DNA from: Oceanibaculum nanhaiense
GTDB taxonomy: Bacteria; Pseudomonadota; Alphaproteobacteria; Oceanibaculales; Oceanibaculaceae
Assembly: GCF_002148795.1 (NCBI RefSeq)
Contig: NZ_MPOB01000003.1
Span: 124,001 to 188,000, forward strand
DNA: 64,000 nucleotides
Direction of reading: 5' to 3'
This document shows positions 7,806 to 22,562 of this stretch, piece after piece (position 1 is the stretch's first letter; each line of letters begins with the position of its first letter). Made by a program: the position numbers and the translations under genes. Under the pieces are notes generated by a model. The model saw nothing but the letters and a program-made list of their open reading frames with translations, did not search any database and was not told where the DNA came from.

Positions 7806-8885
<1,080 letters not shown>

Positions 8886-9027: not shown

Positions 9028-10704
9028 CTACCCCTCCAGCAGCTCCTTCACGCGGCCGGCCAGCTGCTTCAGGCTGAACGGCTTGGACAGGAAGGCGATG
9101 TCGGCCTGCTCCGCGATGCGCTGGCGCAGCGCATCCTCGGAATAGCCGGAAATGCACAGTACCTTGATGTGAGGCCGGTGTTCGCGCACGAGGCGGATCA
9201 GCGTCGGCCCGTCGATCCCTGGCATGACCACATCGGTGATCAGCAGGTCGATCTGCTCATCCTCGGCGGCCAGGATTTCCATCGCCGCCTCGCCGGAACG
9301 CGCCTCGATCACCTTGTAGCCCTTGTTACGCAGGGCCCGGGCGCTGAACAGCCGGACCGGATCCTCATCCTCGACCAGCATGATCGTGCCGGCCCCGGTC
9401 AGGTCGCGGTGGCGGGTCTCGGCATCCTCCCCCGGCTCCGCGCTCTGCGCCCCGTCCGCGGCATAGGCCGGCAGCAGGATCGAGAAGCAAGTGCCGTGGC
9501 CAAGCTCGCTGCTGACCAGCACATGGCCGCCGGTCTGCTTCACGATGCCATAGACGGTGGACAGGCCAAGGCCGGTGCCCGAGCCGACCGCCTTAGTGGT
9601 GAAGAAAGGTTCGAAAATGCGCGGCACCACCTCGGGCGGGATGCCGGTGCCGGTATCGGACACCTCGATCTTCACATATCGGCCGGGCAGGATCTCCTCC
9701 GTGCCGATCTGCTGCATGTGGGTGATTTCGGTATTCTCCGTGGCAATGGTGAGCGCCCCGCCCTCCGGCATGGCGTCGCGCGCATTCACGGCGAGGTTCA
9801 GGATCACCTGCTCAATCTGCCCCTGATCGACCTTCACGAGATCGAGATTGCGGCCATGGCGCATGTCGAGCCGGATATTCTCGCCCATCAGCCGGCGCAG
9901 CAGGTGCGACAGTTCCGACACCACCTCCGAGACGTCCAGCACCCGCGGCCTGAGCGTCTGCTGGCGCGAGAAGGCCAGCAGCTGGCGCACCAGATTGGCC
10001 GCCCGGTTGGCGTTCTGCTTGATCTGCATGATGTCGGCGAAGGACTGGTCGCCGGGCGAATGGCGCAGCAGCAGCAGGTCGCAGAAGCCGATCATCGCGG
10101 TCAGCAGATTGTTGAAATCATGCGCCACGCCGCCGGCAAGCTGGCCCACCGCCTGCATCTTCTGCGACTGCACGAACTGCACTTCCAGCTTCTTGCGCTG
10201 GCTGACATCGATCAGATGCAGCATCAGGCGGGGCTCTTTTCCTTCGGACCCATTCGCCAAATCCGCGCCCTGCAGAACACGCACGAAACCGGCGGCCACC
10301 AGATCGGCGTCCCGCGCCATGCGGATTTCCACCGGAAGTCCGGGCGGCGATCCGGCCAGCGCCAGTTCGACGGCCTCGGCGAGCTGGCCGGCATCCTCGG
10401 CCTGCACCAGCGCCGACAGCGCCAGACTTCCCTCGGGCGGCACGCTGTCCAGACCGGCCAGGTCGCAGAACATGCGGTTACCGGCCAGCACCCGCCCCGC
10501 GCGGTCGGCGAAGACGATGGCCAGCGGCGCATTCTCGAAGGCCTGGGCAAGCTGGTCATTGCCGATACCGCTACCAGCCCCTCCCGAACCGATAGCCGAA
10601 CCGATACCGGATTCGCCGCCGGAATCGGCGCCACGGCCAAACAGCCGGGCGATATCGCCAAACAATCCGCCGGAGGCGGTGTTATTGCCGGGTTGTTCCG
10701 CCAT
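9028..10704 (-). CDS. cckA: CckA-type hybrid histidine kinase, no membrane segment
   Basis: A 558-residue kinase-receiver protein resembling CckA, which phosphorylates CtrA via ChpT in alphaproteobacteria. Order: Gly/Ser-rich N-terminus (1-50), one PAS-like domain (about 51-168), HisKA with H195 in GGVAHDFNNLL, HATPase (N box NLAVNARDAM, G boxes SDTGTGIP and GSGTGLGLS), and a receiver (about 440-558) with phosphoacceptor D491 in LLITDVVMPG. Caulobacter CckA has two N-terminal transmembrane helices; none is visible here, so the protein looks cytosolic. It overlaps flhB by 23 bp and has its own AGGGA ribosome site inside the flhB end, so it is probably translated with the flagellar operon. A motility-specific paralogue is possible. 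Confidence 0.85.
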   Translation of the reverse strand: MAEQPGNNTASGGLFGDIARLFGRGADSGGESGIGSAIGSGGAGSGIGNDQLAQAFENAPLAIVFADRAGRVLAGNRMFCDLAGLDSVPPEGSLALSALVQAEDAGQLAEAVELALAGSPPGLPVEIRMARDADLVAAGFVRVLQGADLANGSEGKEPRLMLHLIDVSQRKKLEVQFVQSQKMQAVGQLAGGVAHDFNNLLTAMIGFCDLLLLRHSPGDQSFADIMQIKQNANRAANLVRQLLAFSRQQTLRPRVLDVSEVVSELSHLLRRLMGENIRLDMRHGRNLDLVKVDQGQIEQVILNLAVNARDAMPEGGALTIATENTEITHMQQIGTEEILPGRYVKIEVSDTGTGIPPEVVPRIFEPFFTTKAVGSGTGLGLSTVYGIVKQTGGHVLVSSELGHGTCFSILLPAYAADGAQSAEPGEDAETRHRDLTGAGTIMLVEDEDPVRLFSARALRNKGYKVIEARSGEAAMEILAAEDEQIDLLITDVVMPGIDGPTLIRLVREHRPHIKVLCISGYSEDALRQRIAEQADIAFLSKPFSLKQLAGRVKELLEG

Positions 10705-11800
10705 TTCGTCCCTGGTTCTGGTTCTGATTCTGGTTACGGCCCTGGTTCAGGCGGAAGACGTAGGAGATGATCTCGGCAATGGCCTGATACTGCTCCGGCT
10801 TGATTTCCTGATCGACCTCGACCGAGGCGTACAGCATGCGGGCAATCGGCGGATTCTCGACCACCGGCACCTTGTGCTCCTCCGCCATCTCGCGAATGCG
10901 CAGCGCCACCGCGTCAATGCCCTTGGCCACCACCATCGGCGCCTGCATGCTGTCGCGCTCATACTTGATGGCAACCGCATAATGGGTCGGGTTGGTGACC
11001 ACCACGGTGGCCTGCGGCACGGCGGACATCATGCGCTGGCGCGCGCGCTGCATGCGCAGATTGCGCAGGCGGCCCTTGATCATCGGGTCGCCTTCGGTCT
11101 GCTTGTATTCGTCGCGCACTTCCTGCTTGGTCATGCGCATCTGCTTGTTGAAGGCATAGCGCTGATAGACCAGATCGGCAAAGGCGATGACCGCCATCAC
11201 ACAGACCGCCCCGCCCAGCAGCAGGATCAGCATCCAGCGGATTTCCTCCAGCATTTCCACCGGATCCAGCTGCATGATCTCTTCCAGCCGGGCCAGTTCC
11301 GGATACATGATCAGGCCCAGCAGCGCGCCCACCAGGACAATCTTGAAGATGCCCTTCAGGAACTCGACCAGCCCCTTGGAGGAGAACATCTTCTGCAGCC
11401 CTTTTATGGGCGAGATGTTCTGCAGCTTCGGCGCAATCGCCTCGGGGGCGAACAGCACGCCATTCTGCATAAGGTTCGCGCTCACCCCCAGGAACAGGAA
11501 CAGCAGCACCGGGATGCTGAGTGCGATGGCCGTGCCGGCGACCACATAGGCGAAGACGCTGCCGACATTGGCCGCATCCAGGATCAGCTCATGCGGCTTT
11601 TCGATGAAAGGGCGGATGGAGGTGTAAATCTGCTTCGATACGAAGCCGGCGAACAGGCTGACGATCAGCAGCCCGCCAACCAGCGAGAACCAGCTCGCCA
11701 CCTCCTGCGAGACGGCAACCTGGCCCTTCTCCCGGGCGTCCGACAGTTTCTTGTCTGTCGGGTCTTCTGTTTTGGACGCTTCGTCCTGATCGTCGGACAT
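10682..11800 (-). CDS. flhB: Flagellar export switch protein FlhB
   Basis: A 372-residue export-gate protein. The N-terminal motif EDPTDKKLSDAREKGQVAVS is followed by four membrane segments (about 36-55, 83-105, 150-168, 188-212). The cytoplasmic domain carries the self-cleavage site N270-PTH in VVVTNPTHYAVAIKY, needed for the rod/hook to filament export switch. The last 18 residues are a Gln/Asn-rich repeat (RNQNQNQNQGRN). Part of flgBC-fliEQR-flhB-cckA. A separate FlhB C-domain homologue is encoded at 14453-14896. Confidence 0.96.
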   Translation of the reverse strand: MSDDQDEASKTEDPTDKKLSDAREKGQVAVSQEVASWFSLVGGLLIVSLFAGFVSKQIYTSIRPFIEKPHELILDAANVGSVFAYVVAGTAIALSIPVLLFLFLGVSANLMQNGVLFAPEAIAPKLQNISPIKGLQKMFSSKGLVEFLKGIFKIVLVGALLGLIMYPELARLEEIMQLDPVEMLEEIRWMLILLLGGAVCVMAVIAFADLVYQRYAFNKQMRMTKQEVRDEYKQTEGDPMIKGRLRNLRMQRARQRMMSAVPQATVVVTNPTHYAVAIKYERDSMQAPMVVAKGIDAVALRIREMAEEHKVPVVENPPIARMLYASVEVDQEIKPEQYQAIAEIISYVFRLNQGRNQNQNQNQGRNGGTTRQ

Positions 11801-11923: not shown

Positions 11924-12688
11924 TCAAAGCGCCAGCATGCGCATCACCACGCTTTCATAATAGCGCAGGAACCACATCATCGAGGCCGACAATATCAGCG
12001 AGAACAGGAAAACACCGAGCAGCAGCTGGAACGGCAGCACGATGAAGAAGATCTGCAGCTGCGGCATCAGCCGCGACAGCACGCCGACGCTGACCTGGAA
12101 CAGCACGCCGATGACCAGCAGCGGCGCGCCGATCTGCAGCGCGATGCGGAAACCGTCGGCGACCGCCCGCGTGACCGCCATGGAGAAATCCTGCACCGGC
12201 AGCGGCGCGCCAGGCGTGAACACCGTATAGCTGTCCACCACCCCCAGCATGAAGATGTGATGCAGGTTGGTCGCCAGGATCAGCAGCACGCCGATCGTGC
12301 TCAGCAGCGCGCCGGGCAGCGAGCCCTGCGCGCCCAGGCTGGGGTTGAAGGCCTGCGCCGAGGCGAGGCCGATCTGCATCGAGATGATGAAGCCAGCCAT
12401 TTCCAGAATCGTCAGCGCGATGCGCGACAGGGTGCCGATGAACAGGCCGATCACCACCTCGCCGGCCACCAGCAGGGCCAGTTGCGGCGCAGTCGGCGGC
12501 ATTGCCGGCAGCGTATCCTGTACCAGCGGCACTGTCAGGAAACTGACCAGCATGGCGAAGGCCAGCCGGACCCGCATGGAGACCAGCCCCTCACCAAGTC
12601 CCGGCATCATCGAGAGCGCCGCACCGACGCGCGAAAACACCAGGAAGAAGGCGAAAAACTGGGCGGGTAGGAACAGCTCGAAAGGCAT
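11924..12688 (-). CDS. fliR: Flagellar export gate protein FliR
   Basis: A 254-residue polytopic membrane protein of the export gate, hydrophobic throughout. Typical family stretches are FFLVFSRVGAALSMMPGLGE at the N-terminus and SVGVLSRLMPQLQIFFIVLP near residue 205. It is 18 bp downstream of fliQ. The order fliQ-fliR-flhB is the standard export-gate arrangement. Confidence 0.95.
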   Translation of the reverse strand: MPFELFLPAQFFAFFLVFSRVGAALSMMPGLGEGLVSMRVRLAFAMLVSFLTVPLVQDTLPAMPPTAPQLALLVAGEVVIGLFIGTLSRIALTILEMAGFIISMQIGLASAQAFNPSLGAQGSLPGALLSTIGVLLILATNLHHIFMLGVVDSYTVFTPGAPLPVQDFSMAVTRAVADGFRIALQIGAPLLVIGVLFQVSVGVLSRLMPQLQIFFIVLPFQLLLGVFLFSLILSASMMWFLRYYESVVMRMLAL

Positions 12689-12706: not shown

Positions 12707-12973
12707 TTAATTCAGCGCGATAATGCGGTCCACCAGCGTCGCCGAGAAATCCAGGAGCGTGCTGAGCATGAAGGGCATGAAAACAAACAGGCTGGCAAAC
12801 ACCACAATAATCTTCGGCACGAAGACCAGCGTCATTTCCTGGATATGCGTCAGCGCCTGAAACAGCGCGATGACAAGACCGATGGCGAGGCCGATGAGCA
12901 TGGCCGGCCCGCAGATAACGAGCGTGGCCACCAGCGCCTCACGGGAAACGTCGATTACGTCGCTCGGATTCAT
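12707..12973 (-). CDS. fliQ: Flagellar export gate protein FliQ
   Basis: An 88-residue two-helix membrane protein of the export gate. It contains the family motifs VISREALVAT near the N-terminus, LIGLAIGLVIALFQALTHIQEMTL and VPKIIVVF. Length and position between fliE and fliR are as expected. Confidence 0.95.
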   Translation of the reverse strand: MNPSDVIDVSREALVATLVICGPAMLIGLAIGLVIALFQALTHIQEMTLVFVPKIIVVFASLFVFMPFMLSTLLDFSATLVDRIIALN

Positions 12974-13020: not shown

Positions 13021-13320
13021 TCAGATCGGCATACGCAGGATTTCCTGATAGGCCTGGATCATCCGGTCGCGCAGTCCGACGACGGTCTGCAGCGTCACCT
13101 CGGCGTCGTTCACCGCGACGATAACATCGTTGAGGTCGGCTTTTCCGGTGATGGCCTTCATGCTCATCTCCTCGCCGCCCTTCATCACCTCATGCGCCTC
13201 CTGGACGCTGTCGCGCAGGAAGCTGGCGAAATCCTTGCCAGGCTCGCGCGTCTCCAGACCGCCTTCGATCTGGCCGGTCTTGGCATAGGCAGCAATCGCA
13301 TCACCGATCCGGGCAACCAT
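13021..13320 (-). CDS. fliE: Flagellar hook-basal body protein FliE
   Basis: A 99-residue MS-ring to rod junction protein. The C-terminal FliE signature (DLNDVIVAVNDAEVTLQTVV, then RDRMIQAYQEILRMPI) is clear. It is located between flgC and fliQ in the usual flgB-flgC-fliE order. Confidence 0.94.
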   Translation of the reverse strand: MVARIGDAIAAYAKTGQIEGGLETREPGKDFASFLRDSVQEAHEVMKGGEEMSMKAITGKADLNDVIVAVNDAEVTLQTVVGLRDRMIQAYQEILRMPI

Positions 13321-13360: not shown

Positions 13361-13777
13361 TCAACCGCGCAGAAGATCGATGGTTCTGGTCAGCATCGAC
13401 ATCGAGGTCTCGATGACGTTCAGATTGGCTTCGTAGCTGCGCTGTGCCTCGCGCATGTCCATCGTCTCGATCAGCGCCGAGACGTTCGGCGCCATGATGT
13501 AGCCATCCTGGTCCGCATAAGGATGCGTCGGGTCGTATTTGGTCTGGAACTGCGAGGGGTCGTTGGTGACCCTGCTTACCGAGACCTTGTGCATGTTGTC
13601 GGCGCGGTCCAGCTCATTCCGGAACATCACGATCTTGCGCCGGTAGGGCTCCTGCCCCGGACCCTCCGCCACTGAATTGGCGTTCGCCAGATTCTCCGAA
13701 ATCACCCGCAGACGCAGACCCTGGGCCTTCATGCCCGAGGTCGAGATCGTCATCGCACCCATCAGATCCTGTGCCAT
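13361..13777 (-). CDS. flgC: Proximal rod protein FlgC
   Basis: A 138-residue rod subunit. The N-terminal rod signature GMKAQGLRLRVISENLANAN and the C-terminal EANLNVIETSMSMLTRTIDLL are both present, as in all flagellar axial proteins. It follows flgB and precedes fliE. Exported through the type III apparatus without a signal peptide. Confidence 0.96.
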   Translation of the reverse strand: MAQDLMGAMTISTSGMKAQGLRLRVISENLANANSVAEGPGQEPYRRKIVMFRNELDRADNMHKVSVSRVTNDPSQFQTKYDPTHPYADQDGYIMAPNVSALIETMDMREAQRSYEANLNVIETSMSMLTRTIDLLRG

Positions 13778-13809: not shown

Positions 13810-14223
13810 TTACGCGCCCGGCTGGCGGCCGATCGCCAGTTTCATCATGGTGAGGTTCTGCCGGTACAGGCTGCTCGCGAGGCGGAAATCCGCCTGGTTC
13901 TGCGACACGTTGGTCAGCTGGTTCTCCAGCGAGACCGCGTTCTGGTTGATGCTGACTTCGTAGGCGTTCCGCGGACGCTCCTCATTGACGCGGAATTCCG
14001 GCTCGCGCCGGATGCCGGTCAGGTGGTTCGCGGTGGTGGCGGCCATGTTCACCCGCGGGGTTTCCTTCACCATGGCGCGGAAATCCAGCGGCTTCAGATC
14101 GCGCGCCCGATAACCCGGCGTGTCGGCATTGGCGACATTCTCCGCCAGCACGGTATGGCGCTGGGCCAGCCAGTCCATCTTCTGCTTCATGCCCTGAAAC
14201 AGTGCCAGATTGCCCATGCTCAT
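13810..14223 (-). CDS. flgB: Proximal rod protein FlgB
   Basis: A 137-residue rod subunit. The rod signature RHTVLAENVANADTPGY is at about residue 20. The start at 14223 (MSMGNLALFQG) is preferred over one 20 codons upstream because AAGGAG lies 8 nt before it and homologues begin here. First gene of the flgBC-fliEQR-flhB-cckA operon, with a sigma-54 promoter 57-72 bp upstream. Confidence 0.95.
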   Translation of the reverse strand: MSMGNLALFQGMKQKMDWLAQRHTVLAENVANADTPGYRARDLKPLDFRAMVKETPRVNMAATTANHLTGIRREPEFRVNEERPRNAYEVSINQNAVSLENQLTNVSQNQADFRLASSLYRQNLTMMKLAIGRQPGA

Positions 14224-14279
14224 GTCGTTGTCTCCTTGCCTTGCATCCGGTTCGGCCGTTTGCCTTGCCAGAATTGAAA

Positions 14280-14295
14280 GCAATCCGCGTGCCGG
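14280..14295 (-). promoter_or_regulatory. Sigma-54 promoter of flgB operon
   Basis: Minus strand reads CGGCACG-CGGA-TTGC, one mismatch from TGGCACG-N4-TTGC with the invariant GG-N10-GC spacing (GG at 14293-14292, GC at 14281-14280). The predicted transcription start is near 14268, giving a leader of about 45 nt. Confidence 0.82.
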
Positions 14296-22175: not shown

Positions 22176-22562
22176 TCAGAAGTTCCCGATAACGGCCGAC
22201 AGCTTCATTTTCAGCGTGGCGGCGTTGAACGGCTTCACGATGTAATTGTTCACGCCGGCCTGTTTGGCGGCGATCACGTTCTCGGTCTTGCTTTCCGCCG
22301 TCACCATGATGAACGGCGTATGCTTCAGCTTGGCGTCCGCGCGCACTTCCTTGAGGAGCTGGAGGCCGGTCATCGGCTCCATGTTCCAGTCGGAAATGAC
22401 AAGGCCGTAGCTTTTCTCGCGCATCTTCTTGAGCGCCATGCTGCCATCGGTGGCTTCATCGACATTGTCGAAGCCGATCTGTTTCAGCAGATTGCGGATG
22501 ATCCGAAGCATCGTGCGATAATCATCGACGATGAGGATCTCCATATTCATATCGACGCTCAT
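22176..22562 (-). CDS. cheY: Chemotaxis response regulator CheY
   Basis: A 128-residue single-domain receiver. Acidic pocket is ILIVDDYRTM, phosphoacceptor is D58 in VISDWNM, Thr in VTAES, and Lys in NYIVKPF: all receiver key residues are present. GAGGTGATGA precedes the ATG. First gene of the cheY-cheZ-MotB-like-MotB-AMIN/TPR operon, with a perfect CtrA box 71-85 bp upstream. It would bind FliM, encoded 1.5 kb away. Confidence 0.95.
   Translation of the reverse strand: MSVDMNMEILIVDDYRTMLRIIRNLLKQIGFDNVDEATDGSMALKKMREKSYGLVISDWNMEPMTGLQLLKEVRADAKLKHTPFIMVTAESKTENVIAAKQAGVNNYIVKPFNAATLKMKLSAVIGNF

Follow-up and report, generated by a model that had tools for sequence, protein, structure and literature searches.

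The window analysed here is a 64,000-nucleotide stretch of one contig of the alphaproteobacterium Oceanibaculum nanhaiense. It hosts a run of genes that follows a sigma-54-like site, flgB-flgC-fliE-fliQ-fliR-flhB-cckA, in which the last gene encodes a CckA kinase without transmembrane helices (Table 1). A preliminary description of the locus placed cckA in a sigma-54-driven flagellar operon and reported that it overlaps flhB by 23 bp. The overlap is confirmed, and the sigma-54 statement holds as a sequence observation, the site before flgB being conserved across G000, G001 and G003, all of this genus. The same is true of the CtrA box that had been noted before cheY: apart from this TTAA-N7-TTAA sequence the window has no perfect match, with 0.03 expected, and each of the four genomes of the genus has the box in the corresponding position. 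Among relatives, recA is often the next gene after cckA. At its 3′ end flhB codes for an Asn-Gln repeat (NQNQNQNQGRN, window positions 10682-10740) that extends as far as the overlap with cckA.

Table 1. Features discussed in the text, in window coordinates.
Feature	Position	Strand	Remarks
recA	7806..8885	-	Downstream neighbour of cckA; the order flhB-cckA-recA is common among relatives
cckA	9028..10704	-	No transmembrane helices; ATG start, ORF of 558 aa
CckA protein layout			Amphipathic stretch 14-24; Gly/Ser linker 25-48; PAS 49-166; DHp (His195); CA; REC (Asp491)
Codons 14-24 of cckA (LFGDIARLFGR)	10633..10665	-	Putative membrane-targeting amphipathic helix
flhB	10682..11800	-	Overlaps cckA by 23 bp (10682-10704)
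fliR	11924..12688	-	Family matches
fliQ	12707..12973	-	Position and sequence
fliE	13021..13320	-	Pfam
flgC	13361..13777	-	Flg_bb_rod and Flg_bbr_C domains
flgB	13810..14223	-	First gene of the run; position and sequence
Sigma-54-like promoter CGGCACGCGGATTGCT	14279..14294	-	CGGCAC-N5-TTGCT, about 56 bp before flgB
cheY	22176..22562	-	
CtrA box TTAACTCTTGTTTAA	22633..22647	-	TTAA-N7-TTAA, about 70 bp before cheY

CckA is a master kinase in the control of the cell cycle and of motility, and it is ordinarily anchored in the membrane. The protein is a real variant of CckA, from which the typical N-terminal hairpin (usual, not universal) is missing. It has a DHp domain with the phospho-His, a CA domain, a C-terminal REC domain with the phospho-Asp and CckA-specific similarity, and the order flhB-cckA-recA further supports its orthology. 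Pfam places HisKA at residues 187-249, HATPase_c at 293-413 and REC at 441-552, and it finds a single PAS region, within residues 51-129, which bears out the one PAS-like domain of the preliminary description. His195, Asp491 and the CA motifs are invariant in an alignment of 21 members. The best NCBIfam models are two CckA equivalogs, with 628 and 506 bits. The equivalog cut-off of 1000 bits, made for full-length proteins, is not reached by the 558 residues, as fits the absent N-terminal half; the NF046020 cut-off is passed in just 5 of 387 genomes of the class and is an unfair bar for this group. This is also the sole CckA-like kinase of a 98.8%-complete genome, scoring 1208 bits where the next kinase reaches 71, and the search for a second, membrane-bound cckA that had been proposed as a check returned none.

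Comparison with known proteins shows what has been kept and what has gone. In Caulobacter, CckA combines two PAS domains with a pair of transmembrane helices (PMC9981736). The protein described here shares its DHp-CA-REC core (51% identity over DHp-CA, by Foldseek), the DHp-proximal PAS, the phospho-His and the phospho-Asp, and ChpT and CtrA are encoded in the same genome; in contrast, it has no two-helix anchor, one PAS rather than two, and no CpdR was found in the genus. The nearest solved structures are the DHp-CA (5idj) and CA (5idm) parts of Caulobacter CckA, together with the REC entry 6tne. The best family match is the CckA of the Brucella and Rhodospirillales type (NF046020), with an alignment that begins at the last PAS and extends to the C-terminus, and here too the flhB-cckA neighbourhood is that of many relatives. 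Hairpin-bearing relatives have a median length of 833 aa, most of them with a longer sensor part, whereas the present protein has 558. In the AlphaFold model the PAS domain (49-166) is mostly confident, and the N-terminal 47 residues are of very low confidence.

The missing membrane anchor is well supported. Membrane helices were called from a hydropathy window rather than a trained topology predictor, and by this measure the highest Kyte-Doolittle 19-residue mean is 1.25 over the whole protein and 1.02 before the phospho-His, compared with 1.6-3.1 in relatives that were scored as having membrane helices. The absence of N-terminal transmembrane helices, a claim of the preliminary description, thus stands. 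An upstream start adding membrane segments had been named as a possible refutation. It can be ruled out, because the frame is open for just 14 codons upstream of the ATG (open frame 572) and that DNA is occupied by flhB. A frameshift artefact is also unlikely, since the gene is the same in the sister species G001 and flhB leaves no upstream room.

Within the genus the anchor has a varied history. The sister species G001 has a helix-less cckA like the one described here (G000), and the CckA of G003 begins with a two-helix hairpin that is followed directly by the single PAS. In G002 a membrane helix is visible at the place of the hairpin, in a hydrophobic segment that is cut by the end of the contig. 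None of the readable members of the genus has the additional PAS domains seen in more distant relatives. Since helices are present in most relatives, it is simpler to suppose that the hairpin was lost within the genus. That said, the near relative L157 is also helix-less, and its fork with the genus is compatible with either direction, loss or regain.

Helix-less CckA is also found in Ferrovibrio and other lineages. Our sample holds 18 such genes, with at least 11 changes of state on two trees, and several other alphaproteobacterial lineages appear to lack the CckA membrane part independently. A count of 14 helix-less genes in 268 genomes of the class is a lower bound and no frequency, as genes with short frames were chosen for closer reading. 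Short relatives without a clear loss were left out: L079, L088 and L158, where the membrane half lies in a separate upstream ORF, L153 and L156, which look frame-shifted, L152, which is cut by a contig end, and L160, which has an uncertain start. In L079, L088 and L158 (and L206), CckA is divided into a membrane-PAS half and a PAS-DHp-CA-REC half, encoded by adjacent ORFs. A genuine split of the gene seems a better explanation than a sequencing error: three assemblies have the break in the same position, their junctions differ, and the genes form one supported clade. No description of recurrent helix-less CckA was found in the open-access literature that was searched. An exception to the two predicted transmembrane domains has been reported, the CckA of Wolbachia strain wNo (PMC4426382); it differs in coming from an endosymbiont, and it is not known to carry a replacement anchor.

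What might take the place of the hairpin? Codons 14-24 encode a short stretch, LFGDIARLFGR, with a hydrophobic moment of 0.74 (0.73 in G001), a value reached by none of 500 shuffles. The membrane-targeting sequences of MinD and FtsA are C-terminal and experimentally shown. They are likewise short amphipathic helices that combine basic residues with a bulky hydrophobic face, and they gave moments of 0.48-0.84; the CckA helix differs in being N-terminal and predicted only. AlphaFold draws a helix at residues 14-23, with a pLDDT under 50. The stretch is kept in G001, mostly via synonymous changes, as its flanks and the linker drift: between the two species codons 12-25 carry 2 replacement and 5 silent changes, and codons 2-11 carry 6 and 1 (Fisher p 0.10, from small numbers). 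Similar amphipathic N-termini occur in L167, L187, L170 and L190, and weakly in L025. In Ferrovibrio, L157, L163, L169, L161 and L154/L155 the helix is absent or not significant, and therefore it is not a general replacement for the hairpin. Taken alone, membrane contact by this helix is a tentative proposal that we rate a little below an even chance. The broader idea, that several alphaproteobacterial lineages including this genus have exchanged the hairpin for a peripheral amphipathic anchor, and thus a fixed polar kinase for one that binds the membrane reversibly as MinD does, is doubtful, and we put it at about one chance in four.

The relay in which this kinase would act is encoded throughout the genus. 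ChpT, CtrA and PopZ are present in all four genomes, with CtrA assigned by sequence match to a CtrA query, at 71-72% identity. CpdR was not found in the genus (G000-G003), where the only match was CckA's own REC domain, below the cut-off. With CtrA, ChpT and PopZ present, this suggests that the control of CtrA proteolysis differs from that in Caulobacter. An NCBIfam scan limited to ten kinases recognised no DivL.

The reading that we favour, and hold to be rather probable, is that this is the only CckA of the organism, that it starts the CckA-ChpT-CtrA relay, and that its hairpin has been replaced by a probable amphipathic contact with the membrane or a polar partner. The kinase would most likely drive motility genes through this phosphorelay, presumably passing phosphate to ChpT and CtrA. 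The transmembrane hairpin is missing in the species and its nearest sister, with the DHp-proximal PAS, DHp, CA and REC domains kept, and the protein would probably touch the membrane or a polar partner via LFGDIARLFGR instead of spanning the membrane. Counting against this reading are the low pLDDT of the amphipathic helix, the helix-less lineages that have no significant helix of this kind, and the lack of a CpdR match and of a recognised DivL, which point to a control unlike that of Caulobacter. When the cytosolic part of Caulobacter CckA is placed on liposomes, its kinase activity increases with surface density, an effect mediated by PAS-A, and control by c-di-GMP works through PAS-B (PMC4853435). 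Density-dependent activation may have been lost here, with the missing PAS-A.

In the main alternative, CckA is truly cytosolic: having lost its membrane and polar control, it would work as a soluble kinase-phosphatase governed by a ligand, c-di-GMP or another, that acts via the remaining PAS and CA domains, and the N-terminal stretch would be no anchor. The lack of any hydrophobic segment, the very low model confidence of the first 47 residues and the several helix-less relatives without an amphipathic N-terminus all agree with this. So does the retention of the Tyr and Lys that align with Y514 and K518 of the Caulobacter protein (by a numbering deduced from the motif), as Y514D compromises c-di-GMP binding there (PMC5189948). 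However, the amphipathic stretch is conserved between the two species amid drifting surroundings, similar N-termini recur in several lineages, and the full kinase activity in vitro of Caulobacter CckA without its transmembrane part depends on surface density (PMC4853435). We consider this alternative unlikely, though it deserves to be taken seriously. The cytosolic kinase of the preliminary description thus stands in part: the helices are absent, and a cytosolic location is not established, as the amphipathic N-terminus may keep the protein membrane-bound.

That description went further and proposed a flagellum-coupled CckA. The gene lies directly downstream of flhB in 92 of 137 hairpin-bearing relatives and in 12 of the 18 helix-less ones, two collections that may share a few genomes, and 17 membrane-bound CckA genes in the set of 137 overlap the flhB ORF. 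The linkage is widespread and looks independent of membrane anchoring, and because it is equally common with membrane-bound CckA it is no sufficient argument for a soluble kinase coupled to the flagellum. The position beside flagellar genes is old and common to ordinary membrane-bound versions, and for Rhodospirillum rubrum a link between flagellar genes and ctrA, cckA and chpT has already been published (PMC12363192). That expression together with flhB couples the phosphorylation of CtrA to basal-body assembly is thus very improbable: the overlap, the conserved sigma-54-like site and the conserved CtrA box are in its favour, and this same neighbourhood around membrane-bound kinases, with the six helix-less genes that are not directly behind flhB, speaks against it; cckA may also have a promoter of its own inside flhB.

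The switch of CckA between its kinase and phosphatase states is thought to hinge on polar clustering at the membrane (PMC4853435). In this genus the relay and the gene neighbourhood are the same, yet the hairpin is present in one species and absent from its sisters, a natural experiment that bears on whether CtrA control requires a membrane anchor.
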